From Clostridia bacterium (GTDB lineage: Bacteria; Bacillota; Clostridia; Christensenellales; CAG-1252): 64,000 bases of DNA. Positions 26,901 to 53,512 of this stretch are shown one piece after another; the first letter of the stretch is position 1, and every line of letters starts with the position of its first letter. The notes beneath the pieces were generated by a model. It saw only the letters and a list, made by a program, of their open reading frames with translations. It did not search any database and was not told the origin of the DNA. Both the position numbers and the translations under genes were made by a program. Where the stretch lies: contig JAFPXC010000007.1 of assembly GCA_017394805.1 (NCBI GenBank), positions 65,093 to 129,092 of the forward strand. The letters are read 5' to 3'.

Positions 26901-28508
26901 TTATTCGTCGTTTTTTCGTTCGTATTTGTCGCACAAGGCGTTGATTTGGTTGGTGAAACGCGCCAATTCTTTGTTGGCGCCCCCTCTGTTTTGCTCGATG
27001 ACGTTCATGAGGCGTTTGCCCGCCAGGCGCAAGGCCTCGAATACGGCCACGGCGCGGCGGTGCGCCTTCACTTTCTTGGGCACTTCCTTGACGGGGGCTT
27101 TGTACAGACAACTGCCGTCCGCGAGGTCGAATTCGTCCCCGCTGTAGGGGGCTACGGCTTCCACGCCGAGGCGCACTTTGACTGTCTCGGCGAAGACGTC
27201 CGTCACCGCGCTTTCCCCGTGGTTGACGAACACTTTTTGGGCCTCGGTGGTCTTGAGCCAATCCAAAAGCATATCTCTGTCCGCGTGGCAACTCGTGCCT
27301 TTCATCGCCATAATATGCGCCTTGACGGCTATCTCCTCGCCGAATATCTCCACGTAGGCGGCGCCGTCCAGCAGTTTGCGCCCCAACGTGCCTTCGGTTT
27401 GGTAGCCCACGAACAGCACGGTGCATTCCTCCCGCCACAAGTTGTGTTTGAGGTGGTGACGGATTCTGCCCGCGTCGCACATACCCGCCGCCGATATGAT
27501 GACTTTGGGCGTTGGATTCGTGTTGATGGCGCGCGACTCCTGCTCGGTGACCGACAGGTGCAGGTTGCCGAAGCCGATGGGGTTGACGCCCTCGGCCATC
27601 AAAGCGAGGGCTTCCTCGTTGAGATAGCCTTCGAGGTCTTGGCTGTATATATGCGTGGCGTCCACGGCCAACGGACTGTCCAAATAGACCGGAAAGTCGG
27701 GGTACGAGGGTACCTTTTTGCGTTCCTTGATGATGCGCAAGAGGTACAGTAGTTCCTGCGTTCTGCCCACCGCGAAAGAGGGTATTACCACGTTGCCGCC
27801 TCGTTTGAGCGTCTCTTCTATGACGGTGGACAACTGCTCCACGAAGTCCTCTCGTTCTCCGTGCAGGCGGTCGCCGTAGGTAGATTCCACCACGGCGTAG
27901 TCGCACGTGGGCGGAGTGGCGGTGGCGCGTATGAGCGGGCGGGGCGGGTTGCCCAAATCGCCCGAGAAGAGAATGCGGCGGTTTTGGCCGTCTTCGGTGA
28001 TATCGAACAAAGCGGACGCCGAGCCCAAGAGGTGCCCCGCGTCGTAAAAGGTGACGGTCAGCCCGTCCGCAATGCGCACGGTGTCCCCGTAGGCGTAGCC
28101 GTCGAACATATCCATCGCGCGTTCCACGTCCTCGGCGGTGTAGAGGGGCTTATATTCCTCTTCGTCCGCGCGTTTGGCGCGGCGATTGCGCCACTTGGCC
28201 TCGAACTCCTGCACGTGGGCGGAGTCGCGCAACATTATCGCGCACAGGCGCTTGGTCGCTTCGGTGGTGAGAATGGGCGCGTCGTAGCCGTTGGCGACGA
28301 GGAAAGGAATCTTGCCCGAGTGGTCGATATGCGCGTGCGTCAGCACCATCGCGTCTATTTGGGTGGTCGCCACGGGCAACTCGCACGTCTCGAACATTTT
28401 GGGCCCTTGCTCCAATCCGCAATCTATCAAAACGCGTTTGCCGCACGCTTCCAAAAGGGTGCAGGACCCCGTCACGTTGTGCGCCGCGCCGATAAAGGTA
28501 ATTTTCAT
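26901..28508 (-). CDS. MBL-fold beta-CASP ribonuclease (CPSF/YSH1 type)
   Basis: A 535-residue metal-dependent RNase-like protein. The metallo-beta-lactamase part starts with ITFIGAAHNVTGSC and holds the zinc motif LTHAHIDHSGKIP near residue 57 (HxHxDH), further FSGDLGN near 180 and VESTYGDR near 205. The beta-CASP insert is followed by the RNA-metabolising motifs ISAAGMCDAGRI, GYQTEGTLGR and MKGTSCHADRD (last histidine ligand). Proteins of this kind degrade or process RNA. The C-terminal 60 residues are a basic helical tail not seen in minimal members. GGAGGAGACGAGTTT supports the ATG at 28508. Confidence 0.88.
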   Translation of the reverse strand: MKITFIGAAHNVTGSCTLLEACGKRVLIDCGLEQGPKMFETCELPVATTQIDAMVLTHAHIDHSGKIPFLVANGYDAPILTTEATKRLCAIMLRDSAHVQEFEAKWRNRRAKRADEEEYKPLYTAEDVERAMDMFDGYAYGDTVRIADGLTVTFYDAGHLLGSASALFDITEDGQNRRILFSGDLGNPPRPLIRATATPPTCDYAVVESTYGDRLHGEREDFVEQLSTVIEETLKRGGNVVIPSFAVGRTQELLYLLRIIKERKKVPSYPDFPVYLDSPLAVDATHIYSQDLEGYLNEEALALMAEGVNPIGFGNLHLSVTEQESRAINTNPTPKVIISAAGMCDAGRIRHHLKHNLWREECTVLFVGYQTEGTLGRKLLDGAAYVEIFGEEIAVKAHIMAMKGTSCHADRDMLLDWLKTTEAQKVFVNHGESAVTDVFAETVKVRLGVEAVAPYSGDEFDLADGSCLYKAPVKEVPKKVKAHRRAVAVFEALRLAGKRLMNVIEQNRGGANKELARFTNQINALCDKYERKNDE

Positions 28509-28563
28509 AAACTCGTCTCCTCCGGTCGCAATCGTAGGAAAAGTCAAGGACTTTTCTCCTTAC

Positions 28564-29277: not shown

Positions 29278-29289
29278 CGTTTTGCGTCG

Positions 29290-29307
29290 GCGTGCCGTTT
29301 GGCACGC
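29290..29307. terminator. short hairpin between convergent yabQ and VWA genes
   Basis: GCGTGCC-GTTT-GGCACGC (29290-29307) lies where yabQ and the minus-strand VWA gene converge and touches the latter's stop codon. The following TATTTCGTTT is a poor T-run, so termination is uncertain. Confidence 0.45.
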
Positions 29308-30659
29308 TATTTCGTTTCGGGCAGATACCGCGCCACGATACCCCAAGGCGGGGTGACCAAGCGGTTGTTGACGAGCCAAAATACGGGGGTGTCCAACGCC
29401 ATGCTTTCGGGCGGGAAGACGGCGTAGCCGTCCGTGAAGATGATGATGCCCGTGATCTCTTCTTTTTCGTAGAGGTGCTTGCGGAAATAGTCGAACACCG
29501 CGTGGAAGTTGGTGCCGCCGCCCCCTCTGGGAACGATCTTGCGCACGTCTTCGAAGGTCTCGAAGTCCACGGGCTCGGTGACCTTGGCGTCGAAAAAGGA
29601 CAATTTGCCCGATAGAGCGCCCCCGAATTGGTCTATACCGCCCTTTATCTCGCTGAACGCCCGCGCCATATCTGCGTTGGAGATGGAGCCCGAGGTGTCC
29701 ATCACGAGCCACAGGTTTTTCACCGTATCGGTCGGCTCGTTGAAGTCGGGCAAAAACACGTCCGCAAAGCGCCTGTCGGGGGGCATGAAGGAGTAGTCGG
29801 TCACGTCGGTCTGTATGAAGTTTTGGAGTAAGAGCCGCCAATCGATGGTCGGCCTCGTCAATTCGTCGTAGTAGCGTTTGGCCAATTCCGCGCCCTTGCC
29901 CGCGTGTACGCCCTGTTCCATCGTGGTTTTGGCCGCGTCCATAATGCGCCCTTGCCATTCGGCTTTGGCGGCGGCAGATACTTCGCTCCACCGCGAGTGG
30001 TCGTCCAGCCGCCCCTCGTCGTAGGCGGACGTGTCGTAGTCCTCGTGCCAATCGCCCGTGCCGTCTTTTGCGTTCGCTTCGTTTTCGCCGCGGGTGCCGC
30101 CGCTACGACTGTCGCCGTTCGCATCGTCCGCGTCGGTTTGCTCGTTGCCGCCTTCGCCCTCGTCGTCGCCCATCGGCCCTCCCGCCGTATCGCTTTTTTT
30201 GCGTTTTTTGCCGCTCTTGTGCGGTTTGAGCGTATCGAGGAGCATTTTGTACACGTCCTCGGCGGTGTAGAGGTAGCCCTCTTTTCCGTTGGGCTCGAGG
30301 TGGATGAGTTCGGTGCCCTTCACCGTAACGTCCAGCCCCAATGTATGCAGAATTGTGCTGTTGACCACGATATCCGCGGCGATGTTGTAGAGTAGTTGAT
30401 TGTACCCCCGCCCGCGGAAACAATGCCCCAACACCACGTGCATCAGCTCGTGCAGCATCACCACTTCCAATTCGTCCCGCGGCATATCCTCGCAGAACGC
30501 TTGGCCGAAATACACCCGTTCGCCGTCCGTGCAAGCGGTGGGGCATTGGGTATCGACGGCAAAAATAAGGCTGTGCATCAGCAAGCCGAAAAAGGTGCTG
30601 CGTTCCAACACGTCTATTTTGCAGGCGATGATATTTTCGACTAATTTGCGTTGGTCCAT
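29307..30659 (-). CDS. VWA-like protein with putative metallopeptidase domain (DUF2201)
   Basis: A 450-residue soluble protein with two domains. The N-terminal domain has HELMHVVLGH at residues 70-79, a zinc-metallopeptidase HExxH pattern, within the DUF2201 family. A Lys/Ser/Gly/Asp-rich linker (about 155-210) separates it from the C-terminal von Willebrand A-like domain, with the metal-ion-dependent adhesion site DTSGSIS near residue 322, the distal threonine in GGGGTNFHAVFDYF, and FTDGYA. Proteins of this kind work with a MoxR AAA+ ATPase, encoded immediately upstream here (TAA then ATG with no gap). The target of the pair is unknown; the third gene of the operon is a large helicase. Confidence 0.85.
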   Translation of the reverse strand: MDQRKLVENIIACKIDVLERSTFFGLLMHSLIFAVDTQCPTACTDGERVYFGQAFCEDMPRDELEVVMLHELMHVVLGHCFRGRGYNQLLYNIAADIVVNSTILHTLGLDVTVKGTELIHLEPNGKEGYLYTAEDVYKMLLDTLKPHKSGKKRKKSDTAGGPMGDDEGEGGNEQTDADDANGDSRSGGTRGENEANAKDGTGDWHEDYDTSAYDEGRLDDHSRWSEVSAAAKAEWQGRIMDAAKTTMEQGVHAGKGAELAKRYYDELTRPTIDWRLLLQNFIQTDVTDYSFMPPDRRFADVFLPDFNEPTDTVKNLWLVMDTSGSISNADMARAFSEIKGGIDQFGGALSGKLSFFDAKVTEPVDFETFEDVRKIVPRGGGGTNFHAVFDYFRKHLYEKEEITGIIIFTDGYAVFPPESMALDTPVFWLVNNRLVTPPWGIVARYLPETK

Positions 30660-31769
30660 TTAGAAAAGGTTGGCGTGCTTACCCACCCATTGCATGAATT
30701 CGGGGATCTGCATCAGTTGCTTTTTGACCGCTTCGCCTTTGGCGAGCATCTCCTTGAAAAAAGTGGCCGTGTAGTCGGGCGGGAAGTTGGTGCTGTAAGC
30801 CACCAACGCGCGCGTTTTGGGTAGGTCTTTGCAGTCGCCCACGGCGGCTACGAAGAGGCGCACCGTGGCGTACAAAGCGTCGGGCGACTTGGGCACGGCT
30901 TGGTATTCGCCCGCAATGATTTTTTTGACGCTGGGCAAGGTGGCGTGCGTGCGGCACCAAGAGGAAAATTCGTTGGCGACGCCTACGCCCACCAAGCCCG
31001 CGATCATCGGGTAGGCCTCTTTCACTTCGGCGTAACAGCCTTGCAGTAAGACGTTGCTCACCATCTCCCAACTGCGCGGCGTGGCGTAGGCCACGTCGTC
31101 GTTGCCGCCGTTGAACGTGCACAGCAGATCCTGTCGGTTGGACAAAAAAACCACTACACGTAGGTCGAGTTTTTGCGCCGTCGCCCATTCTCGCCATGCG
31201 TCGAAGTCCACGTCTATCTGCAAGTGACACATACGGTTGGCGAGTGCTTTCGGCATCTTGTAGGCCACCGATTTGTCGGTGACGCGGTTGCCTGCGGCGA
31301 TGACGATGCAGTTGTCGGGCAGGCGGTGCTCGCCGATGACTCTATCGAGGGTGATTTGGTAGGCCGCCGCCTGCACCGAGGGGAGCGCGGCCGATATTTC
31401 GTCCAAAAACAATATGTTCACGGTGTCCGCGTCCGCGCGCATATCGAAAATCTTGGGTCGTAGCCAAATGGCGAAGGTCTTGCTTTGGTCTGCGGTGGGA
31501 ATACCCCTGAGGTCGATGGGGTTGAATAGCAGTAGGCGCACGTCGGTGACTTCCACCTTTTTGCCCGTATGCCGACGTATGTATTGCGCAAGTTGCCGTA
31601 CGCCCTGCGATTTGCCCACGCCGGGAATGCCCCACAGCATGACGGCGGGCACTTTCCACACGGGTTCGCCGCTTTGAATGGTATTGACGTACAACGCGCC
31701 CAGCGAGTCCACCATAGCGGTGGGGGACATACCCACTATGCCCGTCGATTGTATTTCGGTTTTACTCAT
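30660..31769 (-). CDS. MoxR-type AAA+ ATPase
   Basis: A 369-residue AAA+ protein. Walker A is WGIPGVGKSQGV (residues 47-54 core), Walker B is NILFLDEIS (119-126), and AAGNRVTDKSVAYKMPKALANRM holds sensor 1 and the arginine-finger region. MoxR proteins act as chaperone-like remodelling ATPases together with VWA proteins that bring metal-bound substrates. The gene lies between helicase and VWA genes; it overlaps the helicase 3' end by eight bases and abuts the VWA gene, so all three are one translational unit. Confidence 0.88.
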   Translation of the reverse strand: MSKTEIQSTGIVGMSPTAMVDSLGALYVNTIQSGEPVWKVPAVMLWGIPGVGKSQGVRQLAQYIRRHTGKKVEVTDVRLLLFNPIDLRGIPTADQSKTFAIWLRPKIFDMRADADTVNILFLDEISAALPSVQAAAYQITLDRVIGEHRLPDNCIVIAAGNRVTDKSVAYKMPKALANRMCHLQIDVDFDAWREWATAQKLDLRVVVFLSNRQDLLCTFNGGNDDVAYATPRSWEMVSNVLLQGCYAEVKEAYPMIAGLVGVGVANEFSSWCRTHATLPSVKKIIAGEYQAVPKSPDALYATVRLFVAAVGDCKDLPKTRALVAYSTNFPPDYTATFFKEMLAKGEAVKKQLMQIPEFMQWVGKHANLF

Positions 31770-34700
31770 CGTCGTTCACTCCCAATTCTTTGTCAAGTTT
31801 TGCGAGGGTCTCCCTCGTTTTTTCGATTTCTTCTTCCAGATTGTCCACCCGCGACAACTCCTTTTGCGCGTCTTCGAGTTCGGCGGAGAGGTCGTTGAGG
31901 CGGTTTTTCAGCTCGGCCGCCCGCACGCCGAATCCGTTGAGAATGCGATCCACCGCCGCCATCGCGCTCAGGGCCGAGCCGGCGATATCGAGGTCGGTGC
32001 GCCAATCGAAGGAGCCGCGCACGATAAGACGCGGATTATTATACACCATTCGTTGGGGTATCACCAACTTAAATCCTCTGTATTCCGCCAGCAACTCCTC
32101 TTCGGGGCGGTCTACGTCCAACGCGATGGCCGCGGTGATGATTTCGCCTATTTGACGGCGGTTTACCTGGTCGGCCTTGTGCGCCTCGTAGGTGCGGTTG
32201 TCGGCCTTACAGCACTTGATGAGCAGTTTGATATGCTCTATCTCGGCGGGAATGTATTGCAGTTTGTAATGCAGTTGCTCGTCGCGCTCGGCTTTGCATT
32301 TGGACAGTAGCACCAAGCGCACCAACTTGTTGGCGGTCTCCACGCGCTCTTTGATGCGCGGATCGCCGATGGCCAAGGCTTTGATCTGGGCGTAGGTGAG
32401 CGTCAGCCCGTCCACGTCCTCGCCGTCGCGGCGGTCGAGGCTGTTGTAGAGCAGTTGACTGATGAAGCGCTGTTTGCTTTCGAGTAGTTGCCACGAATAG
32501 GCGTCGAAACTGCCGTCCGTGATATAGCGGTATATCTCCACGTCGTCGTTTTGGTTGCCTTGCCGTAGCATACGCCCCTCTCGTTGCACCATATCGGCGG
32601 GACGCCACGGTACGTCCAAGTGATGCACGGCAAAGAGGCGGCGCTGGACGTTGACGCCCGTCCCCAATTTGAAGGTGCTGCCGATGAGCACGCGCACGGC
32701 GCCCTCGTTGACCGCCGCAAACAAAGCCTGTTTTTCGAGGTCGGATTTGGCGTCGTGGATATAGGCGATCTGGTCGTTCGGCACGCCGAGTCCCACCAAT
32801 AGCCTGCGCATTTCGTCGTACGCGTTGAAGGTGGACTTGGGCGCGGAAATATCGCAAAACACGAGTTGGGTCACCAAGGGCTTGTCCCGCCATATCGTAT
32901 ATACGTTTTCGGCGCAGGCCTCCACTTTGCTGTGGCGGTAGGGCTGTGCGGTCGGATCGACCAATCGCATATCGAGGGCGGCTTTGCGCCCGTCCACGGT
33001 CACTTTCAAGAGGTTGTCGCCCGGTTCGCTATTGTGCGCGCGGATATCTTCGGCGCGGTCGGCCAAAGAAAGTATGTACTCGTACTGTTCTTTGGAGCGG
33101 GGTACCACGATATTGTGGTAGTCCACCGTGCCGCGGAAGAGGTTTTCGTTGTCTTCGAGGTGGAAGTCGGCCACCGAGGCGAAAATATTGGTGAGTTCGG
33201 GCAGGTTGTGGAAGCGGTTGAAGCGCCGCCGCATACGGTAATTGACGGCGTCCACGTCTATCTCGAAGTCCTCGCTTTGTTCACCGAACATCAGCGCCCA
33301 TTCGTCGAAGCTGTCCAACCCCAAGAAGTGCAGTTGCCCCGGCTGCAAAAACTTCTGCATGACGTACATATCGGCGATGGTGTTGGTGATGGGCGTACCC
33401 GTGGCAAACACGATGGACTTCGCGCCCGTATAACGCGACAGCACGCGCACTTTGAGGTGCATATCGTCCGCGTGGGCGCTCGCGGCCTTTTGGAAGAAGT
33501 TGCCGCTTTGCCCGCCCAAGGTGATGTTTTTGAAGTTGTGCGCCTCGTCCACGAAGAGGCTGTTGACGCGCAGGTCTTCGAACTTGATGCCCGGCGCCTC
33601 CAGTTGCATTTTGCCCTCCACCGTGAGTATCTTGTCGGCCAATTCGCGGCGGTACACGGCGTATTCGGGGGTGTCCGGCAGGTCGTTCAACTCGTGGCGA
33701 AGCTCGTTCCGCACGCGCTTCAATCCCACGGGAATGGCGCCGAAACTGCTATAGGCCATCACGACGGCGTCGTAGTCTTCGGTCTTGATGCGTCGTAGCA
33801 CCGCCTGCCGCTTTTTGGGCGTGAAGTCCTTGGGGTACACCACGTACACGCGGGCTTGCGGGTAGAGGGTGTAGAAGGCCTCTTCCCATTGTCCCAAAAT
33901 GTTGTTGGGCACCACGAAGAGGTTTTTTTCGGATAGTTTCATACGCCGCATTTCCATCGCGGCGGCGATCATGATATAGGTCTTGCCCGTACCCACGCTG
34001 TGCGCCAAAAGGGTGGAACGTGAGGCGATAATTCGCGCCACGGCGTCCTTTTGGTGGGGGTACATGGTGATGACGGGATTCTTGCCGGGCAGGGAGAGGA
34101 AGGAGCCGTTGTAGCGGCGCGCCTTGATACAGCCGTAGCGGCGGTAGAAGATGTCTTCCAGCGTTTCGCGCACCTTGTCGTTGCCTTTGACGTAGCGGTT
34201 GAAGGCTTCGATGATATTGTTTTGCGCTTCCCTTGCGAGGGCTGTTTCGGCGTTGTTGACCGTGCGCTCGAAGCGCTGGTTCCTTGCGTAGCCCGGTTGA
34301 TACACGCGGTTGACGTCGTATATGACGATGGCTTTGTTGTTGAGGGTGTCCTCGATGATTTGGGGCGGCGAAATGCGTTTGGTGCCGTAGCCCGTGGAGA
34401 ACTTTTCGCCGTAGCGCACCTTCCAACGATTCAGGCGGGTGTCGTGTACCACGCCGTCTTTCAGTTTGAACCCCAGGTGCAGTAGGTCCACGACGAAATC
34501 GTTGACGATCTCGGCGGGTATCCAGGGCGAACCCAGCGTGTAGTATATTTGGTCGGTGGTCAAACGCACGGGCAACAGTTTTTCCAGCGCCTCCACGTTG
34601 GCGTCGAAGTAGCCTTGATATTTCTCGTTGGCGGCTTTGGCCGTCTCGTATTTTTGCAGAACGTTGCCCGAAAGGTACTCGTCCGAAGTCACCCACCCCT

Positions 34701-35340
34701 TGTAGAACACTTCGTTCCACTCCTTGGGGTTTTGGTAGACGCTCCCCGTCAGGCGCAGCAACCGCACGGTCTCGGCGAGATCCCGCCCCGCGATGGCCGC
34801 CACGTATTCCATATCCACCTTGCCGAGTTCGGCGAGGCTGTGCATCAAGGCGTCTTCGAGATTGTCCACCGTTTCGGTGGGCGCTTCGGCGGCGAAGGGG
34901 TTTACGTAGTCGGTGGGCAGGTCGTACGAGGTCACTTTTTTGACGTGTTCGGCTTGCCGCTTGGCTTCTTCTTCGGCTTTTTTCTCCTCGAGCAGTTTGT
35001 TGCGCTCTTCGCCGTAGCCCAAGTCGGCCAGTACCTTTTCGCCCAGTTTGGCCGCTTCTTCGTCGCTCATCGTTTGGCAGATGGCTTCGGTGTGGCGGTC
35101 GATGGCCTCCCGTATCTCGTCCGCCGTGCTGTCCTCGGCGATACGCAGGTCCGCGAGGGGTTCTTTGGGCGCGTCGCTCGCGCCGACCTCTATTGGGTCG
35201 GATAGACACAAATCCCCGTCGCTCGCGGCTACGGGGTTGGGTGCGGTCGTGTCGCTTGCGGTCACCTCTTCGTCGGGTGTGCCGTAGGCGGCCAAAACGT
35301 CTCGTGCGGCTCGTTCTTCTTTTTCGTTTATCTCTTCCAT
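31762..35340 (-). CDS. large SNF2-type superfamily 2 helicase of the mobile-element class
   Basis: A 1192-residue protein. The start at 35340 has AGAGGAAT in front; the longer reading begins inside the -10 box. Residues 1-130 are acidic and low in complexity. From about 250 to 430 it shows the conserved prelude of plasmid- and phage-encoded SNF2 helicases (TTDQIYYTLGSPWIPAEIVNDF; NGSFLSLPGKNPVITMYPHQ). Helicase motifs follow: I LLAHSVGTGKT near 445, II VDEAHN near 597, III FATGTPITN near 647, and VI QREGRMLRQGNQ near 920. A coiled coil forms the last 60 residues. Relatives on mobile elements usually carry an N6-adenine methylase domain at the N-terminus; here that domain is absent. First gene of an operon with MoxR and VWA genes. 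Confidence 0.85.
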   Translation of the reverse strand: MEEINEKEERAARDVLAAYGTPDEEVTASDTTAPNPVAASDGDLCLSDPIEVGASDAPKEPLADLRIAEDSTADEIREAIDRHTEAICQTMSDEEAAKLGEKVLADLGYGEERNKLLEEKKAEEEAKRQAEHVKKVTSYDLPTDYVNPFAAEAPTETVDNLEDALMHSLAELGKVDMEYVAAIAGRDLAETVRLLRLTGSVYQNPKEWNEVFYKGWVTSDEYLSGNVLQKYETAKAANEKYQGYFDANVEALEKLLPVRLTTDQIYYTLGSPWIPAEIVNDFVVDLLHLGFKLKDGVVHDTRLNRWKVRYGEKFSTGYGTKRISPPQIIEDTLNNKAIVIYDVNRVYQPGYARNQRFERTVNNAETALAREAQNNIIEAFNRYVKGNDKVRETLEDIFYRRYGCIKARRYNGSFLSLPGKNPVITMYPHQKDAVARIIASRSTLLAHSVGTGKTYIMIAAAMEMRRMKLSEKNLFVVPNNILGQWEEAFYTLYPQARVYVVYPKDFTPKKRQAVLRRIKTEDYDAVVMAYSSFGAIPVGLKRVRNELRHELNDLPDTPEYAVYRRELADKILTVEGKMQLEAPGIKFEDLRVNSLFVDEAHNFKNITLGGQSGNFFQKAASAHADDMHLKVRVLSRYTGAKSIVFATGTPITNTIADMYVMQKFLQPGQLHFLGLDSFDEWALMFGEQSEDFEIDVDAVNYRMRRRFNRFHNLPELTNIFASVADFHLEDNENLFRGTVDYHNIVVPRSKEQYEYILSLADRAEDIRAHNSEPGDNLLKVTVDGRKAALDMRLVDPTAQPYRHSKVEACAENVYTIWRDKPLVTQLVFCDISAPKSTFNAYDEMRRLLVGLGVPNDQIAYIHDAKSDLEKQALFAAVNEGAVRVLIGSTFKLGTGVNVQRRLFAVHHLDVPWRPADMVQREGRMLRQGNQNDDVEIYRYITDGSFDAYSWQLLESKQRFISQLLYNSLDRRDGEDVDGLTLTYAQIKALAIGDPRIKERVETANKLVRLVLLSKCKAERDEQLHYKLQYIPAEIEHIKLLIKCCKADNRTYEAHKADQVNRRQIGEIITAAIALDVDRPEEELLAEYRGFKLVIPQRMVYNNPRLIVRGSFDWRTDLDIAGSALSAMAAVDRILNGFGVRAAELKNRLNDLSAELEDAQKELSRVDNLEEEIEKTRETLAKLDKELGVNDDE

Positions 35341-35401
35341 ATTCCTCTTATCGTATAATCTCGTCAACGCGCAAATAATGCGTGCTTGCGCGTTCGCTTC
35401 C

Positions 35402-35431
35402 ATTATATAGTATTAGCCCCGTTTTCGACAA
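35402..35431 (-). promoter_or_regulatory. promoter of the helicase-MoxR-VWA operon
   Basis: On the minus strand TTGTCG (35426-35431), 18 bases, TATAAT (35402-35407). It gives a leader of about 55 bases before the helicase start at 35340. Confidence 0.6.
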
Positions 35432-35450
35432 ATGGAAACACGCCATTGAC

Positions 35451-35470
35451 AAAAAAACGCTCGGCGTTTT
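35451..35470 (-). terminator. small terminator after the 38-residue gene
   Basis: On the minus strand AAAACGC-CGA-GCGTTTT is followed by a continuous T-run (seven Ts in all). It separates the small gene from the helicase promoter. Confidence 0.6.
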
Positions 35471-35506
35471 GCGGGCGGCTCGATAAGAGAGAGAAAAACG
35501 CGGTTT

Positions 35507-35623
35507 TCAGGATTCTTTCGCCTTTCGTTTCGCCTTCAGTCGGGCGATTTTCTTCACCTCGTCTTGGGCGGACAGGTGGAACTTGTTGGTTTGTCCGGCA
35601 CTCGCTTTGGTCTTGTTGCGCAT
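35507..35623 (-). CDS. 38-residue basic small protein
   Basis: On the minus strand GAGGAGGTATT, an ideal ribosome site, precedes ATG at 35623. The 38 codons give a peptide starting MRNKTKASAGQTNKFHLS and ending in a strongly basic helix with alternating Lys and Arg (KKIARLKAKRKAKES). Its own terminator follows at 35451-35470. No cysteines and no hydrophobic segment. It could be an RNA- or DNA-binding peptide, a spore or ribosome-associated protein, or an accessory to the adjacent helicase operon transcribed in the same direction. I do not recognise a family. Confidence 0.6.
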   Translation of the reverse strand: MRNKTKASAGQTNKFHLSAQDEVKKIARLKAKRKAKES

Positions 35624-44095: not shown

Positions 44096-47000
44096 ATGAG
44101 TCATAAGCGCACATCGAAAGCCTTATCCATCGGCATTGCGATACTGCTCGTATTGACGCTCGTGGTCCTCTGCGCCTGTAACGACAAAAACGACGGCAAC
44201 AAGACGAACACCGAATTTACCGTGTCCTTCTACGTCGACGGCGCAGTCTATCAGACCATCAGCACCACTACGGGCGCGATAACGCTGCCCACCAATCCCA
44301 CCAAAGAGGGCTACGTCTTCGCGGGTTGGTACATAGACGACGGCACCTTCCTGACCGCCTTCTCGGCGGACAGCGTGAAGGCCAACCTCAAAGTCTACGC
44401 CAAGTGGACGCCCGCGGGCGAGACCCCGGGCGGCGACACGCCGGGCGGCAACGATAATCCGGGCGGCGGCGACACCCCGGGCGGCGACACGCCGGGCGGC
44501 GATACCCCCGCCAAATCTTCCGACGTCACCCTCGCCATCACGGGCTTCGAGATGACGGGCGACGCCTTCGCGGTGGAACTCGGCAACGCCGTAACGACGG
44601 TTGACCTCACGCCCATCGCCACGGTGGCCGCCAAGAGCACCATCGCGGTCTATAGCGACGAGGCCTGCACCACCTCGGTGGAGGGCGCCATCGCGCTCGC
44701 CGAGGGCAACAACACCTTCTACGTCAAGGTGACCGCCGAGGACGGCACCGCCAAGACGTACGTCGTGACGGCCTACCGCAAGCACCTCTACACCCTTACG
44801 CTCGACGCGGGCGTGGGCGATGCCGCTACTTTGCAGGTAGAGGAAGGCTCGGTGGTGAGCGCCCCCGGTTGCTCTGCCACCAAGGCGGGCTACGTCTTCG
44901 CGGGGTGGAACTACGACTTCACCGCTCCCGTGACGGCCTCCGCCACCGTGACCGCCAAATGGACGGCCAAACGCATCGCCGTCAAGTTCGACGTGGATGG
45001 CATTGACGACGCCGAAATCGTCTTCGGCGCCACCGACTACGCCTTTGCGCCCGCCGCCAAGACGGGATATACCTTCGGCGGTTGGTCGTACGGCGGCACC
45101 GCCTACACGGACGCCACCGGTCAAGGCGTCAAGGCGTGGGATATCGACGAGGCCGAGGTGACCTTGGTCGCCATTTGGACGGCGAAAACCTACGACCTGA
45201 CCTTCGAGAACGACGTATGCGATTCCATCAAAGTGACTTACGGCGAGTCCATGCCCGCCATTTCCTACTCGCCCTACAAAGAGGGCTACCTCTTCGACGG
45301 TTTGGGCGTAGGCGGCGTGAAATACTACAACGCCGACTTCACTTCCGCGCACGTCTGGGACATCGACCGCAACGACGTGGTTATGCAAGAGTTGTGGGTA
45401 GCGGGCGGCTACTACGTGTGGTTGGCCCCCGACAACGGGGAAGACGCTTACAAAGTCGCCCTCGTCTACGGTGAGAATTACACCATCACCCCGCCCACCC
45501 GCACGGGTTACGACTTCGCGGGTTGGTACGCGGGTGACGACCAACTGACGGACGCCGAGGGCAACTCCCTTGCGCCCTCTTCCGTCAAGGACAGCAGTTG
45601 GACCTTCGTCGCCCACTGGACGGCGCACGTCATCACCGTCAAGTTCAATGCCAACGGCTCCAATACGAGCGTGATGCCCACCACCGTGACCTACGGTTCG
45701 ACGGAGTTTAGTTTTCCCGCCATCACCCGCGCGGGCTACGTCTTCGGGGGCTGGTACGTAGGCGACGTACAATACGCCAGCCTCGTGGGTGCGCCTATGC
45801 GTCAATGGGACCTCGATGAGGAGACCACCTTGACGGCCAAATGGACGCCCGTGGTCGTGACCGTCCACTTCGACAACAACGGCGGTGTGGACGCCGCGTT
45901 TGATAGAGAGGCCACCTTCGACGCGGCTTTGCCCGCGTTGACCGTTGCGCCCACACGCACGGGCTACCAATTCTACGGCTATTGGACCGCGTCCGCTTTG
46001 AACGAGGGCACCTGCGTCTACGGCACCAACCTCGCGGCGCGTACCGAACGCAGCACCTATACCGAAGACCTCACGCTCTACGCGCAATGGCAACCCATCC
46101 AAGTGACGGTGTCTCTCCGAATCGACGATGAGAGCGATCCTTTGGGCACCGCCACCGCCACCTACGGCGAGAAGATGCCCGACCTCGACTTCGCCATGCC
46201 CACCAAAGACGGCTACGTCTTCACCGGTTTCTGGACCAACGGCATCAAATACTACAACGCGGACGGCACGGGCGCGGCAATCGGCTACTTCACCACCGCG
46301 GTCAACCTCTATGCACAATGGAAGAACGGCGTGTACTTCGTCAAGTTCGACGCCAACGGCGCGACTGCGGGCACGATGGTCGACCAAGAGGTCGAGTGCG
46401 ACGTGACGGCTACGCTGGACGGAAACTTATATTCCAAGACGGGTTACACCTTCGCGGGGTGGAACACCGAGGCCGACGGCACGGGCAACGCCTACGCCGA
46501 TGAGGCCGAGGTGAAAGACCTCGCCGCAAACGGCGGCACCTTCACGCTCTACGCGCAATGGACCGCTAACCAATACGCCGTATCCTTCGACGCCAACGGC
46601 GGCGAGGGCACGCAAGCCTCGACTACCGCCACCTACGACGCGGCTATGCCCGCCATTGTGGTGGGTGTAAGCCGTACGGGCTACACCTTCGGCGGCTACT
46701 ATCTGGACGATGTCAAATACTACAACGCGGACGGCAGTTCGGCCAAGGCATGGGACGTGTCGGGCAGCGCTTCGTTGCTCGCCAAGTGGACGGCCAACAC
46801 CACCACCGTATCCTTCAACGCCAACGGCGGCGAGGGCGAGCAGGCCTCGGTCACCGCGACCTACGCCACGGATATGCCCGCCGTTACGCTCGGCTTCGTG
46901 CGCACGGGCTACACCTTCGCGGGCTACTTCGACGCGGCTGAGGGCGGCGCCAAATACTACACGTCTACGGGCTACTCCTACCACAGTTGGGACAAGGACG

Positions 47001-50000
47001 CGGCTGCCGTGACGTTGTACGCGCAATGGACACCCAACGCCTTCGTCATTACCTTCAACTTCAACAACGCGACGACGGGTGGCACCCAAAGCGTGAGCGC
47101 CACCTATGCGGCGGGTATGCCGCCTATCCCCGTTTTGCCCACCAAGACGGGCTACAATTTCCTCGGCTACTTCGACGCGATCGAAGGCGGCACCAAATAC
47201 TACAACGCGGACGGCAGTTCGGCCAAGGCCTGGGATAAGGCGGAGGGCGCTTCGCTCTACGCGCATTGGCAGGTCATCACCACCACCGTCGTCTTTGACG
47301 TGCAGGGCGGCGTGGGCGAGCAAGCGGACATCACCGCGACCTACGGCCAGCCTTTGCCTAACCTCGAGGAGATAACCGTCGACCGTCAATACTACCGCCT
47401 TGCGGGTTGGTACACTTCGCCCAACGGGCAGGGCACGCAATTCTACAACGGCGAGGGCGTTTCCACGGGCGTCATCTGGACGTATACCGTCAACGCCACC
47501 CTCTACGCCTATTGGATAGACGGCTATTATACGATACAATACAACGCCAACTGTGCCGAGTACTACGGCAGCATGAGCGACAGGAACGCGCGTTGCAACC
47601 AAAACTTCAATTTGAACAGTCTTAATCTCAGTCGCACGGGTTACGACTTCGTGGAATGGAATACCGCGGCGGACGGCTCGGGCACGTCTTACGCAGACGG
47701 CGCCTTGATCGATACCAACTTGGCGGACGACGGGGAGACCGTCACCTTGTACGCCATTTGGCAGGGCAAAACCTACACCTCGGCGGCGTATCCCATCTAC
47801 GGCGAGTGGGACGTCACGTTCGACCTCAACTACGAGAACCCCGACTTCGACGCGCCCGACGTCCAACACGTGACGCCCGCCACGGGGCTTCGGTACGTGC
47901 GCCCCTCGGGCGACCGCGAGGGCTACTACTTCGCGGGCTGGTACACCAATCCCGAATGCACCAACTACTACTACTTTTATAACACCATCTACGAGAATAA
48001 GACCTTGTACGCCAAGTGGGTGGAGAGAACGAGCGTGAGCTACTCCGCGTATACGCCTATCCATCGCGACGGCACCTACGACATCACCCTCACCAACGCG
48101 GATCAGTCCTTCGCGGTGTACGTCGTGGGCGACTGCTATCTCGAGGTGAGTGCGGGCAAGAACGCGCGCATCTACATTTCGGGCAATTCCTATAACTATG
48201 GTAGTTACTACGTTTATGCCTATAAAGGCTACACGTACGCCATACAAATCCGCGCTTACGAAGACAGCGAGGAATATTTGGGCGATACCACCTTTACGGT
48301 GAAGATGACGCCCCGCGCGGACGGCCGCACGAAGGAGAACACCTTTGCGACTTCCGTGATCTACGGCTCGCCCGTAGAACTCGGCGTACCCGAGGCGGAG
48401 GGCTACACCTTCGGAGGTTGGTACTCCAGCGAGAACGGCCAAGGCTACCAATACGTGGACGGCGAAGGCAACGCGGTGACCAACTGGAACTACGACTACA
48501 ACCACGCCATCTACGCCTACTGGATCGGCAACGAGTACACCGTGACCTTGAACGACAACGGCGGCACGGGCGGCCAAGGCGAAGTGACCGCCACTTTCGG
48601 CCGCATGATGCCCGACCTCGAGACCGTGCCCACCCGCGAGGACTTCGACTTCATGGGCTATGCTTTAGAGCAATCGGCCCTCGACTATACCTACTACTAT
48701 AACGAGGGCGGCAACGCTTACAGCGGCAAACTGTGGAACTTGACGGACGGCGTTACCCTCTACGCCAGCTGGACGGCGGCACCCTACAAGGTGATATTCG
48801 ACGGCAACGGCTCCACGGGCGGCGGCACCGAGACCGAACAGACCCACTACCGCAATCAGACCAAGAACTTGGCAAACGTCGGCTTCAGCAAGACGGGCTA
48901 CAGTTTTGTGGAATGGAACACCAAAGCGGACGGCTCGGGTACCTCGTACACCAACTATCAATCGGTAACCAACCTTGCCTCGGCGCACGGCGAGATACGC
49001 CTGTATGCCATCTGGTCCGCCAACTCCTACACCGTTACGCCCGACTACAACGTCAAACCCTCGCACACCGTCACGTTCGACCTCAACGGTTGGGCGGAGG
49101 GCGAAGTGCCCGAGGCGCAGGTGATCACGCCCGCTCAAGGGCTTATGCTTCCCACCCTCGTGCGCGACGGCTATGAGCTCTGCGGTTGGTACGACAACGC
49201 GGAATGCACGGGCGAAGAGTACGATATGAGCGTCACCCACGACGACGACGTCACCTTGTACGCCAAGTGGCGCGTCGCCACCTACGCGGGCGAGGAACCC
49301 TTGGTCTATATCGACGACGAGGTGGAGGTGACCTTCGACGGCACGCAAAGCCGCGCCGACGACGCGACCGTCCTTGCGACCTGTCCTCTCTACGCCTTCG
49401 TGGCGCCCGCCACCATGCGGGTGTACTTCGAGTCCTTCGTTTCGGACGGCGACACCTACGGCTATCTCTTCAACAGCGAAAAGGTGAAAGTAGCCTCTGA
49501 CGACGACGGCGCGGGCAACCGCAACTTCCGCATCTCCTACACCGTGACCGCGGGCGCCGTGTACTACGTAGCCGTGTGTCCGTATAGCGCGGGCGCCGAG
49601 TGGGCCACCCACCTCAAGGTATATGCCGCTACGGGTGCTCTGCACACCTCGAGAACCCTTGCGGGCGAGTCGGTGACCTACGACGACGACTTCACCATCA
49701 CGGTACCCGAAGTGACGGGTTACGAGTTCCTCGGCTGGTACGACCAAATCAACGGGCAGGGTACGCAATATACCGATGAAACGGGCGCGAGCGTGCGCAC
49801 GTGGGACAAGGCCTCCGACACCACCTTGTACGCCTATTGGCAAGTGGGCGTTTACGACGTGACCTTCGACGCCAACGGCGGCACGGGTACGCAGGCCAAG
49901 GTGGAGGCCACCTTTGCCGAGGCGATGCCCGCTGTGACCGTGGCCCTGTCGCGTGAAAGCTACGTCTTCGTCGGTTACTTCGACGCGGCCGAGGGCGGCA

Positions 50001-53000
50001 CCAAATACTACAACGCGGACGGCACTTCCGCCAAAGCGATGGACAAGGGCGCCAATACCACCCTGTACGCGCATTGGGAGGGCCTGCCCTACACCGTGGC
50101 CTTTGACGCGAACGGCGGAGAGGGAGAGATGGACAATCAGACCGTTCTCCACGCCACCGCCACCGCGCTTACCGCCAACGCTTTCACCCGCACGGGCTAC
50201 GACTTCGCGGGTTGGAATACCAAAGCGGACGGCACGGGTACCTCGTATGCCGACGAGGCCGAGGTGACCGACCTGGCCGCCGTGGGCGAGACCGCCACCT
50301 TGTACGCCAAATGGACGGCCAAGACGCTGACCATCACCAAAGACGGCGTCAAGATCCACCCCGTCACCATCAGTTTCAATTTGAACGGCGCCACGGGCGT
50401 AGCCCCCGCCGCGCAGACCGTGACCAGATGGAACGCCCTTGTCTATCCCGACGTGCCCACCTATACGGGCCACGTCTTCGCGGGTTGGTACGACAACGCC
50501 GAATGCACGGGCGACGTCTTCGACTTCGGTACCGACTTCACCGCCGTCCAAACGGTGACCTTGTACGCCAAGTGGATAGACTACACCAAAGATCCCGAGT
50601 CCGACGAAATGACCGACAAGACCATGATGGGTATACCCACGATGGACGGCGCGACGTCGGTGACTTTGGATGGAATGAACGTGCGTTTGTACCCCGTGGT
50701 GGTACTGACCGAGCAAGAGGTGGCGTTCACGACCTACACCAGCAACAAGGACACCTACGGCTACCTGTTTGACGCCGACCTCAAGCAACTCGCCTCAAGC
50801 GACGACGGCCACATGGGCACGTATGGCAACGCCTTCTACATTTCCCGCACGTTGCAGGCGGGCACCTTGTACTACGTGGGCGTAAGAGCCTATAGTAGCG
50901 GCACCGAGACCGTGACTTTGACCATCATCGGCGGCGCCACTTTGCCCAAGGACGGTGCCTTGTCCAAGGCCACCAACCTCGGTACGACCACCGTCACCTA
51001 CGGCGACGCCACTACCATAGCGGCCGACAGCCTCGCGGGCTACACCTTCGAGGGCTGGTACGACGGCGAAGGCGGTACGGGTACCAAGTACGTCAACGCG
51101 GACGGCACCTCGGCCAAAGTGTGGGATAAGGCCGCGGATAGCACCCTCTACGCCAAGTGGACGGCGCATACCCACACCGTGACCTTCGACGCCAACGGCG
51201 GCACGGGCTCTACGCCCGCGGTCACCGCCACCTACGGCGAGACGATGCCCATCATCAGCACCTTGCCCACCATGGCCATCAAGATCGTCACGGGTTACTT
51301 CACGGCGGCGGACGGCGGCAAGAAATACTACAACGGGGATATGACCGCGGCCTGTGAGTTCGACGTGGACGCCGACCTCGTATTGTACGCGCATTGGGAT
51401 TACGTGCCCTACTACGCCACCTTCGACGGCAACGGCGCGACCGCGGGCAGTATGGACGACGAGAAGCTCAACCGCGACGTGGCGACCGTTTTGACGGTCA
51501 ACGCCTTCGAAAAGACGGGCTACGACTTTATGGGTTGGAACACCAAGGCGGATGGCTCGGGCACCTCGTACACCGACGGGGAGGCCGTGACTAACATCGC
51601 GGACGCCTACGCCACCATCACCTTGTACGCCGTCTGGCAGGCAAAGACCACCAAGGTCACGTTGGACGACAGACCCAATCGGCACTCCGTCACCGTCACC
51701 TTCGACCTCAACGGCGGCACGGGCACCGTGCCCGACGCGCAGGTGGTGACGCCTACCGTGGGTATCACCTATCCCACCGAGGTCCCCACCAAGGACGGCT
51801 ACCTTTTCAAGGGTTGGTACGAGGACGCAGAGGGCGAGGATAAGTTTGACTTCGAAGACCCCATCGACGATTCCATCACCCTGTACGCGGGTTGGTTCGA
51901 GCAGGACGGCAATCTCCTGGTGTACGGCGCGGACAACGACATCACCGTCACCTCTTCCACCGTGCGCTACTACTTCTACGTGTTGCAACAGGGCTATCGC
52001 ACCTTCACCGTCGGCAAGGACGCCTACTTCATCACCAGCAACTCCTATTACGGCAACGGCAGCGTGAGCAACGTGTTCTTCTATGAGGGTTGCTACTACG
52101 TGGACGTCCATTCCAAGGACAACAGCGACGAGGCCGAGTACGTGGGTGATACCACCATCAACGTAGGGGCGGTGTGGCCCGACGACGGCGGCGTGTCCGA
52201 CAACACCGTTTACGCCGAGTTCGACATTGACTACGACGAGGAAGTATCCTTCGGCACGCCTACTCGCGAGCATTACGACTTCATGGGTTGGTACACCTCC
52301 ACGAACGGCGGCGGCACCAAGGTGACCGACAGCACGGGCGCGGGCGCGCGCAACGACGCGGGCACCTGGGATTACCTGGACGCCACCAAGACGTTGTACG
52401 CCTACTTCCGCGGCGTGGCTACCACCGTCACCTTCGATTTGCAGGGCGGCACGAGTGAAGATCTCGAGACCGATACGCTGTATTACGACTCTGCCAAGTC
52501 CTACAGCAGCGGTTATATTCCCACCAAGGTGGGCTATACCTTCTGCGGGTTCTATGCTGGCGTGGGCGGCACGGGTACCAGATACTTTGCCGCCAATATG
52601 AGCTATGACGCCAGGTGGGATAAGTGGGTGGATACCACCATCTACGCCTATTGGACGCCCAACGTCTACGAGGTATACTTGGACGACATCGACATCTCGA
52701 CCGTTACCATTAGCTTCGACCTCAACGGGGCTTCGGGCGTGGCGCCCGCGGCGCAAGCGGTTTCGGGCGAGGATACCCTCAGCTATCCCGCCATTCCCAC
52801 CCGCGCGGGCTATATCTTCGCTGGTTGGTACGACAATGCGGCCTGCACGGGTACGCCGTTTAACTTCGACGGCACGCTCGTGGCGGCTGATACCAGCGTG
52901 ACTTTATATGCCAAATGGATTGCAATCCCCGTAGGTGTGGAAGGCGCCGTGAACGTAGGCGATGCGACGTTGGTGACCGTGAGCGGTGTGACCGTGAGAT

Positions 53001-53512
53001 ACTACGCGTTTGTGCCTTTGACTACGGGCGAATACAAGTTCTATTCGGCAAGCGCGCTCGATATGTACGGCACGCTGTACCTCGGTGACGTTGAGCATCT
53101 TGTGGTTTATAATGATGACGACGACACTTACTCGTTGGGCGTAGCGCAAGGCGGTAACAACCGCGACTTCGGTATCGTACGGAGCAATTTGGTCGTCGGC
53201 AACCTGTACCTGATCGGCGTAAGAGCGTATAGCAACGACTACAATGGCGACGCCACTCTCTACGTGGAAGGTCCTGCCTCGCCCGATGACGGCGCCACTA
53301 CCGAGGCGGGCAGCAAGGCGACCTGCCTCATCACCTTCGACGACGATACGTTCGCGTTGGCCGTGCCCGTCAAGGCGGGTTACACCTTCGACGGTTGGTA
53401 CGACGGCGAGGGCGGCACGGGTACCAAGTACGCGGACGAAACGGGCGCGGCGGTCATCGCCTGGGACAAGGAGGCCAATACCACCTTGTACGCCAAGTGG
53501 ATAGAGAGCTGA
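44096..53512 (+). CDS. giant InlB B-repeat (Listeria-Bacteroides repeat) lipoprotein
   Basis: A 3138-residue exported lipoprotein. The N-terminus has KR, a hydrophobic core and the lipobox LCAC near residue 27. A first repeat is followed by a Pro-Gly-Gly-Asp spacer (PGGDTPGG repeated, about residues 110-142). From there on I count about 31 units of 60-80 residues, each ending LYAxW, with internal GYTFAGW-type strands and often GTGTxYxD. From residue about 1325 the units are interrupted by five beta-sandwich domains of about 110 residues resembling bacterial pre-peptidase C-terminal (PPC) domains (for example YYAFVPLTTGEYKFYS), spaced every 3-4 units. The protein ends directly after a repeat, with no LPXTG or membrane anchor. 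AAAAGGAGATACT is the ribosome site. Presumably a long adhesin fibre anchored by lipid. Confidence 0.88.
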   Translation: MSHKRTSKALSIGIAILLVLTLVVLCACNDKNDGNKTNTEFTVSFYVDGAVYQTISTTTGAITLPTNPTKEGYVFAGWYIDDGTFLTAFSADSVKANLKVYAKWTPAGETPGGDTPGGNDNPGGGDTPGGDTPGGDTPAKSSDVTLAITGFEMTGDAFAVELGNAVTTVDLTPIATVAAKSTIAVYSDEACTTSVEGAIALAEGNNTFYVKVTAEDGTAKTYVVTAYRKHLYTLTLDAGVGDAATLQVEEGSVVSAPGCSATKAGYVFAGWNYDFTAPVTASATVTAKWTAKRIAVKFDVDGIDDAEIVFGATDYAFAPAAKTGYTFGGWSYGGTAYTDATGQGVKAWDIDEAEVTLVAIWTAKTYDLTFENDVCDSIKVTYGESMPAISYSPYKEGYLFDGLGVGGVKYYNADFTSAHVWDIDRNDVVMQELWVAGGYYVWLAPDNGEDAYKVALVYGENYTITPPTRTGYDFAGWYAGDDQLTDAEGNSLAPSSVKDSSWTFVAHWTAHVITVKFNANGSNTSVMPTTVTYGSTEFSFPAITRAGYVFGGWYVGDVQYASLVGAPMRQWDLDEETTLTAKWTPVVVTVHFDNNGGVDAAFDREATFDAALPALTVAPTRTGYQFYGYWTASALNEGTCVYGTNLAARTERSTYTEDLTLYAQWQPIQVTVSLRIDDESDPLGTATATYGEKMPDLDFAMPTKDGYVFTGFWTNGIKYYNADGTGAAIGYFTTAVNLYAQWKNGVYFVKFDANGATAGTMVDQEVECDVTATLDGNLYSKTGYTFAGWNTEADGTGNAYADEAEVKDLAANGGTFTLYAQWTANQYAVSFDANGGEGTQASTTATYDAAMPAIVVGVSRTGYTFGGYYLDDVKYYNADGSSAKAWDVSGSASLLAKWTANTTTVSFNANGGEGEQASVTATYATDMPAVTLGFVRTGYTFAGYFDAAEGGAKYYTSTGYSYHSWDKDAAAVTLYAQWTPNAFVITFNFNNATTGGTQSVSATYAAGMPPIPVLPTKTGYNFLGYFDAIEGGTKYYNADGSSAKAWDKAEGASLYAHWQVITTTVVFDVQGGVGEQADITATYGQPLPNLEEITVDRQYYRLAGWYTSPNGQGTQFYNGEGVSTGVIWTYTVNATLYAYWIDGYYTIQYNANCAEYYGSMSDRNARCNQNFNLNSLNLSRTGYDFVEWNTAADGSGTSYADGALIDTNLADDGETVTLYAIWQGKTYTSAAYPIYGEWDVTFDLNYENPDFDAPDVQHVTPATGLRYVRPSGDREGYYFAGWYTNPECTNYYYFYNTIYENKTLYAKWVERTSVSYSAYTPIHRDGTYDITLTNADQSFAVYVVGDCYLEVSAGKNARIYISGNSYNYGSYYVYAYKGYTYAIQIRAYEDSEEYLGDTTFTVKMTPRADGRTKENTFATSVIYGSPVELGVPEAEGYTFGGWYSSENGQGYQYVDGEGNAVTNWNYDYNHAIYAYWIGNEYTVTLNDNGGTGGQGEVTATFGRMMPDLETVPTREDFDFMGYALEQSALDYTYYYNEGGNAYSGKLWNLTDGVTLYASWTAAPYKVIFDGNGSTGGGTETEQTHYRNQTKNLANVGFSKTGYSFVEWNTKADGSGTSYTNYQSVTNLASAHGEIRLYAIWSANSYTVTPDYNVKPSHTVTFDLNGWAEGEVPEAQVITPAQGLMLPTLVRDGYELCGWYDNAECTGEEYDMSVTHDDDVTLYAKWRVATYAGEEPLVYIDDEVEVTFDGTQSRADDATVLATCPLYAFVAPATMRVYFESFVSDGDTYGYLFNSEKVKVASDDDGAGNRNFRISYTVTAGAVYYVAVCPYSAGAEWATHLKVYAATGALHTSRTLAGESVTYDDDFTITVPEVTGYEFLGWYDQINGQGTQYTDETGASVRTWDKASDTTLYAYWQVGVYDVTFDANGGTGTQAKVEATFAEAMPAVTVALSRESYVFVGYFDAAEGGTKYYNADGTSAKAMDKGANTTLYAHWEGLPYTVAFDANGGEGEMDNQTVLHATATALTANAFTRTGYDFAGWNTKADGTGTSYADEAEVTDLAAVGETATLYAKWTAKTLTITKDGVKIHPVTISFNLNGATGVAPAAQTVTRWNALVYPDVPTYTGHVFAGWYDNAECTGDVFDFGTDFTAVQTVTLYAKWIDYTKDPESDEMTDKTMMGIPTMDGATSVTLDGMNVRLYPVVVLTEQEVAFTTYTSNKDTYGYLFDADLKQLASSDDGHMGTYGNAFYISRTLQAGTLYYVGVRAYSSGTETVTLTIIGGATLPKDGALSKATNLGTTTVTYGDATTIAADSLAGYTFEGWYDGEGGTGTKYVNADGTSAKVWDKAADSTLYAKWTAHTHTVTFDANGGTGSTPAVTATYGETMPIISTLPTMAIKIVTGYFTAADGGKKYYNGDMTAACEFDVDADLVLYAHWDYVPYYATFDGNGATAGSMDDEKLNRDVATVLTVNAFEKTGYDFMGWNTKADGSGTSYTDGEAVTNIADAYATITLYAVWQAKTTKVTLDDRPNRHSVTVTFDLNGGTGTVPDAQVVTPTVGITYPTEVPTKDGYLFKGWYEDAEGEDKFDFEDPIDDSITLYAGWFEQDGNLLVYGADNDITVTSSTVRYYFYVLQQGYRTFTVGKDAYFITSNSYYGNGSVSNVFFYEGCYYVDVHSKDNSDEAEYVGDTTINVGAVWPDDGGVSDNTVYAEFDIDYDEEVSFGTPTREHYDFMGWYTSTNGGGTKVTDSTGAGARNDAGTWDYLDATKTLYAYFRGVATTVTFDLQGGTSEDLETDTLYYDSAKSYSSGYIPTKVGYTFCGFYAGVGGTGTRYFAANMSYDARWDKWVDTTIYAYWTPNVYEVYLDDIDISTVTISFDLNGASGVAPAAQAVSGEDTLSYPAIPTRAGYIFAGWYDNAACTGTPFNFDGTLVAADTSVTLYAKWIAIPVGVEGAVNVGDATLVTVSGVTVRYYAFVPLTTGEYKFYSASALDMYGTLYLGDVEHLVVYNDDDDTYSLGVAQGGNNRDFGIVRSNLVVGNLYLIGVRAYSNDYNGDATLYVEGPASPDDGATTEAGSKATCLITFDDDTFALAVPVKAGYTFDGWYDGEGGTGTKYADETGAAVIAWDKEANTTLYAKWIES
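48068..53280 (+). repeat. super-repeat of one PPC-like domain plus three or four InlB units
   Basis: PPC-like segments begin near 48068, 49305, 50620, 51910 and 52940, i.e. every 1.0-1.3 kb. Between them stand four, four, four and three InlB-type units in matching order (wide GxGT unit, NxGG unit, NTKADGSGTSY unit, FDLNG unit). Corresponding units resemble each other more than they resemble adjacent units, as in a block that was duplicated as a whole. Confidence 0.7.

Follow-up and report, generated by a model that had tools for sequence, protein, structure and literature searches.

MoxR rings and vWA co-chaperones remodel client proteins, and vWA-MoxR pairs recur in conflict systems, where the third component of the MoxR-vWA-centric ternary systems is a VMAP, iSTAND, FtsH or beta-propeller protein (PMC7159879). 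A MoxR gene paired with a gene for a metallopeptidase-vWA protein is also known from group 2.2 jumbo phages, for which a role in virion assembly has been proposed (PMC7824862). From another context, a family of helicases is known as part of the DarB-like methylase-helicase polyvalent proteins (PMC5512222) and as the snf2 helicase of Tn5252-type ICEs (PMC5357655). The stretch of 64,000 nucleotides analysed here (the window) joins members of these families in a triad of the order HEL→MOX→VWA, with HEL a SWI2/SNF2 helicase, MOX a MoxR AAA+ ATPase and VWA a zincin-metallopeptidase–vWA protein; in the following, G-numbers designate genomes and L-numbers loci.

The three minus-strand genes had been described as overlapping or abutting by a previous sequence-only reading, and all coordinates are confirmed (Table 1): HEL and MOX share 8 bases (31762-31769), and the TAA stop codon of MOX directly abuts the ATG of VWA. 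Judged by this layout, the co-directional HEL, MOX and VWA are one operon. The promoter proposed by the same reading is present, with the -35 box at 35431-35426 and the -10 box at 35407-35402; it scores best among three promoter-like sites in the region, against a chance expectation of 3.1, and nearly every base of it is retained in the sister species G001, the surroundings having diverged. Since the first in-frame ATG of HEL (35403-35401) partly coincides with the -10 box, the most probable start codon is the ATG at 35340, which is preceded by an AGAGG-type ribosome site, and not the one at 35403. Hairpins of the terminator type, one of which is listed in Table 1, are in the pattern scan no commoner in the region than by chance.

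Table 1. Features of the triad operon and its immediate surroundings (window positions).
Feature	Positions	Strand	Description
HEL, longest ORF	31762-35403	minus	1213 aa
HEL, revised start	31762-35340	minus	1192 aa; SWI2/SNF2-family SF2 helicase, DarB/conjugative-element class, without N6-methylase domain
MOX	30660-31769	minus	369-aa MoxR-type AAA+ ATPase
VWA	29307-30659	minus	450 aa; N-terminal zincin-like metallopeptidase and C-terminal vWA
Putative operon promoter TTGTCG-18-TATAAT	35402-35431	minus	10/12 consensus; conserved in sister species G001
38-aa basic ORF	35510-35623	minus	neighbour on the citG flank, outside the system
Terminator-like hairpin	29289-29308	plus	between convergent yabQ and VWA; pattern scan

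Other neighbours in the window are yabP, yabQ, a beta-CASP hydrolase and citG, all recognised by Pfam, and a helicase that by its sequence is UvrD/HelD-like; no phage gene was recognised adjoining the operon and no tRNA was found in the window. The 38-aa basic ORF, originally regarded as a member of the unit in front of the operon, is rejected as such and assigned to the citG flank, since besides a homologue in G001 another one sits beside citG in G002, a genome lacking all three genes. The beta-CASP hydrolase (26901-28547), which is found in G000 and G001 and has no good homologue in G002, G003 and G005, is near the type VII Cas14 MBL model (399 bits, cut-off 800) and aCPSF1. Positions 44096-53512 of the window hold a single ORF of 3138 aa.

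The identities initially assigned to the three proteins are borne out by Pfam and PHROGs. HEL matches SNF2-rel_dom (1.2e-12) and Helicase_C (1.3e-07) and, over residues 180-1208, PHROG 10089 (4.6e-224), with DarB-like antirestriction proteins as the closest phage family, in agreement with the proposed phage and conjugative-element class of the helicase. The N6-methylase domain common in this class was said to be lacking, and Pfam indeed detects no methylase domain in the 1213-aa ORF. The motifs GTGKT, DEAH, ATGTP and QREGRMLRQG are kept in 21 triads, while the structure model of HEL is poor (pLDDT 68, pTM 0.33) and supports only the SNF2 core. For MOX, which matches AAA_3 (2.6e-07) and PHROG 1297 (2.5e-85), Walker A and B, the sensor 1 AGNR, the arginine finger and the TPR sensor 2 are kept in the triads; no chain among solved structures matched it at E 0.001.

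VWA is composed of DUF2201_N (2.9e-28) and DUF2201 (1.7e-11), with the peptidase motif HELMHVVLGH at residues 70-79, D96, an acidic linker at approximately residues 150-220 and a complete MIDAS consisting of DTSGS at 321-325 (D321, S323, S325), T383 and D410. Its AlphaFold2 model has a pLDDT of around 90 in both domains. The C-terminal part of the model matches vWA folds at a Z score of around 14, with the whole-model search having seen only the vWA part, and among solved structures VWA matches integrin I domains and, weakly (0.002), the minigluzincin MJ1213. The HExxHxxxxH motif, D96 and the MIDAS residues are invariant in 36 VWA homologues, mostly from phages, and the catalytic motifs of all three proteins are intact in the 21 triads. 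The phage homologues of VWA (records H1-H20; PHROG 1314) are annotated as HNH or homing endonucleases; as those aligned bear the zincin HExxH and the vWA MIDAS motif, this label looks like a propagated error.

With respect to distribution, co-occurrence of the three families, suggested earlier as a check, is found in the order HEL→MOX→VWA at more than 20 loci in Clostridia, including Lachnospiraceae, Ruminococcus bromii and many uncultured Clostridia, and the overlap of HEL and MOX by 4 or 8 bases is seen in 15 of 20 other triads in addition to the window. The triad is carried by 13 of the 396 genomes of the order. A MOX match above 300 bits occurs in 15 of these genomes, with HEL directly upstream in 13, the two exceptions being a MOX-VWA pair with the degenerate motif HQLYH (G060) and a broken fragment with two stops (G373). 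In the former (L067:11977-14434), a single case, the helicase is missing and the catalytic Glu of the peptidase is lost. A set of 397 other genomes from the phylum yielded no triad, and the MOX relatives found there are weaker and reside in genomes without HEL. The distance matrices of the three proteins show correlations of 0.93, 0.96 and 0.93 over 21 triads. None of 2000 permutations reached such values, and shared species history contributes to the correlations. As to the proposed comparison of strains, the operon occupies the same position in G000 and G001, with a divergence like that of its neighbours; G003 possesses two diverged copies, one of them split over contig ends, and G002 (98% complete) and G005 (93%), which belong to the same genus, lack the operon. 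Absent from near-complete genomes of the same genus and differing in position between lineages, the operon is accessory.

Relatives of the helicase are more common than the triad and are mainly found on mobile elements, with matches on 2023 plasmid records, many of them conjugative plasmids, and around 36% identity in the best rows. Of the 396 genomes of the order, 65 have at least one HEL homologue of whatever kind, a distribution unlike that of a universal single-copy helicase without MoxR and vWA partners, which had been envisaged as a counter-finding. The tree of helicase regions gives full SH-aLRT support to a split between the methylase-free forms and the long forms of methylase type found in phages and mobile elements. 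When the longest branches are left out, the 21 triad helicases and one solo helicase (L032) form one group with 96% SH-aLRT, consistent with one origin and subsequent loss; further clades of methylase-free solo helicases lack MOX and VWA. In L201 (6107-8790), a large serine recombinase element interrupts the helicase gene, and the final 289 HEL codons (60.6% identical to L016) lie between the recombinase and MOX. As IMEs are known to target the snf2 helicase genes of ICEs (PMC5357655), the HEL gene of L201 may serve as an attachment site.

The flanks of the triads differ by lineage, and most of those identified are housekeeping genes, among them isoleucyl-tRNA synthetase, ABC transporter, glutamine synthetase, P-type ATPase, permeases and 4-alpha-glucanotransferase. 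These flanks agree with the chromosomal setting assumed for the operon, and not with a block always residing inside a conjugative element. The suggested vicinity to defence genes holds for some loci, as WYL, McrB-like and McrC genes precede the triad in L017 and WYL and a PDDEXK_4/PDC-S26 protein, a defence candidate, precede it in the related locus L016; such conflict-type neighbours were picked from loci read in detail and do not represent a statistical enrichment. A PcfJ-like gene adjoins the triad in L016, and a Dam-type methylase, a further conflict-type gene, is located just upstream of it in L020.

Several other neighbours were observed. In two families, an AAA protein (IetA-like, in L103 FtsH/M41-like), likewise of the conflict type, and a 914-981 aa phrog_8308 protein of unknown function flank the triad on different sides (L103:12127-16518, L105:14381-19805) and may form a second linked system. 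At three separate loci (L015:7111-9129, L016:17429-19492, L099:15790-17874), a CbbX/SpoVK-like protein of 670-694 aa with AAA and AAA_lid_6 domains at its C-terminus is encoded within a few kb of the triad. One of the two triads of G003 is adjoined by a gene for a 240-aa protein with a C-terminal ribonuclease domain (PF00545, barnase-like; L060:8031-8753), members of which family are also found near a solo helicase (L231).

Homologues of VWA occur in 360 phage records and those of MOX in 806, with MOX 45% identical to gp566 of Bacillus phage G. A phage origin of the whole block, followed up by direct search, is rejected: with the VWA protein alone as query, viral contigs gave no match, and an alignment-based search of phages gave MOX-VWA pairs without HEL. 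L200 is the only viral contig of those examined to encode HEL, MOX and VWA together; its HEL gene runs off the contig end, and no structural gene of a phage was identified there. Downstream of this triad, L200 encodes a DUF2828/DUF7788 protein and a tandem pair of large serine recombinases (L200:5293-12087).

SNF2 proteins are translocases of double-stranded DNA, and zincins with the HExxH motif cleave proteins. Coupling of an SNF2 motor, a MoxR-vWA pair and a zincin in one operon suggests that the helicase brings a remodeller-protease to proteins on DNA. On these grounds, the operon would encode a DNA-tethered AAA+ protease machine acting on DNA-bound proteins, kept as an accessory, exchangeable conflict (defence) module, a reading which we favour tentatively, at somewhat less than an even chance. 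HEL would load onto and move along double-stranded DNA and recruit the MoxR hexamer with its vWA co-chaperone, whereupon DNA-bound clients would be remodelled and cut by the N-terminal zincin domain of VWA. Candidate clients may be proteins that enter together with phage DNA, incoming DNA's attached relaxases or terminal proteins, and antirestriction coat proteins, and the function would resemble the clearing of DNA-protein crosslinks by a translocase, an AAA+ unfoldase and the metalloprotease SPRTN in eukaryotes. We infer a physical complex, clients among DNA-bound proteins and a role in defence. The latter is favoured because of the patchy distribution, the shifting position, the paralogues and the occasional defence neighbours, and an anti-mobile-element role, as proposed from the outset with the helicase as putative effector or sensor, appears more likely than housekeeping on the basis of these genomic patterns. 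Points against a defence machine are the housekeeping flanks, the one inherited place within the genus, the lack of a nuclease or toxin within the operon and the phage MOX-VWA pairs without HEL. The narrower proposal of a DNA-guided protease as a new class of bacterial immunity, with the SNF2 motor delivering the MoxR-driven zinc protease to relaxases, terminal proteins and injected antirestriction proteins on incoming DNA for destruction, is unlikely.

The same biochemistry may be directed at the cell's own DNA, where it would clear protein roadblocks and DNA-protein crosslinks instead of acting on invaders. The parts suit SPRTN-like work and the composition of the operon is genome-like (GC 0.579 vs 0.584 for the genome), while the chromosomal setting among housekeeping genes and the vertical inheritance at one locus in G000 and G001 keep repair under consideration; with the operon missing from most genomes of the order, near-complete ones of the same genus included, with positions varying between lineages and with the helicase relatives mainly on mobile elements, genome maintenance nevertheless has only about one chance in four. 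Those same relatives lead to a further explanation, in which the operon is a domesticated or stranded module of an integrative element or prophage and the chromosomal copies are remnants or cargo. Therein, the DarB-like helicase would protect or establish transferred DNA and the MoxR-vWA-peptidase would process virion or transfer proteins. Both the helicase and the MoxR-vWA parts have many phage or conjugative relatives, the triad of L200 has tandem serine recombinases nearby and one of the G003 copies a recombinase-like ORF, and a PcfJ-like gene adjoins the triad of L016. Still, no relaxase, type IV secretion or capsid genes were recognised among the triad flanks examined, all catalytic residues are kept, the methylase-free helicases form their own clade, and L200, with its truncated HEL, is the sole viral contig of those examined with all three genes, which renders this explanation improbable.

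The catalytic residues also bear on whether the MoxR-vWA pair might solely act as a chaperone or in metal insertion, activating or assembling HEL as the true effector, with the peptidase domain as a binding module. This is the general mode of MoxR-vWA pairs (PMC7159879), and the persistence of MOX and VWA in G060, where HEL is missing and the peptidase Glu is lost, indicates that the pair can act without peptidase activity. As the invariance of HExxHxxxxH and D96 in 21 triads and all aligned phage homologues points to catalysis, we regard a chaperone-only function as very unlikely.

Returning to the preferred DNA-tethered protease machine, the clients of the widespread MoxR-vWA pairs are known in few cases, and the genetic tie to a DNA motor of the antirestriction class predicts that the clients are proteins on DNA. 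In the case of defence, the operon would represent protease-based immunity in uncultured and cultured gut Clostridia; in the case of repair, a bacterial counterpart of DNA-protein crosslink proteolysis. In either case, a mobile-element helicase would have been turned into a chromosomal operon.

Compared with known systems, the operon shares with the MoxR-vWA ternary systems (PMC7159879) the adjacent MoxR and vWA genes, one conserved third gene, the peptidase activity attached to the vWA part, the intact arginine finger and Walker motifs of MOX and the MIDAS of VWA. It differs in having an SNF2 helicase as the third component of every triad and in being found in Clostridia, with FtsH-like AAA proteins only in occasional flanks (L103) and no effector-associated domains found in the triad system. 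With the DarB-like and Tn5252-type ICE helicases, HEL shares the family and the flanking domains over approximately 1030 residues, whereas it lacks the methylase and other domains, belongs to a separate well-supported clade and resides in an operon with MoxR and vWA. DISARM DrmD, Zorya ZorD and BREX BrxHII likewise possess an SNF2-family motor, but the matches are confined to the general motor core (E 1e-11 to 1e-6) and the partner genes differ. Membership of the helicase in these defence systems is rejected by scores of 36 bits against a cut-off of 610 (DrmD) and 33 against 1500 (ZorD), and PADLOC offers no model for VWA, a marginal one for MOX and weak, general helicase matches, BrxH included. 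Eukaryotic SPRTN/p97/translocase repair of DNA-protein crosslinks combines a DNA motor, an AAA+ unfoldase and a zinc metalloprotease, parts to which those of the triad correspond by analogy only. Closest with respect to the pair are the jumbo phages (PMC7824862), in which the same two families occur, a vWA protein with an N-terminal HExxH metallopeptidase adjoining MoxR, although the phage contexts examined have no helicase partner and the window operon, beside which no phage gene was recognised, is not in a phage genome. In the open-access literature searched, no description of the union of HEL, MOX and VWA was found, in line with the initial statement that no system with exactly these three components was known; the MoxR–vWA-peptidase pair is thus familiar from jumbo phages, and its union with this helicase looks like a hitherto undescribed combination.
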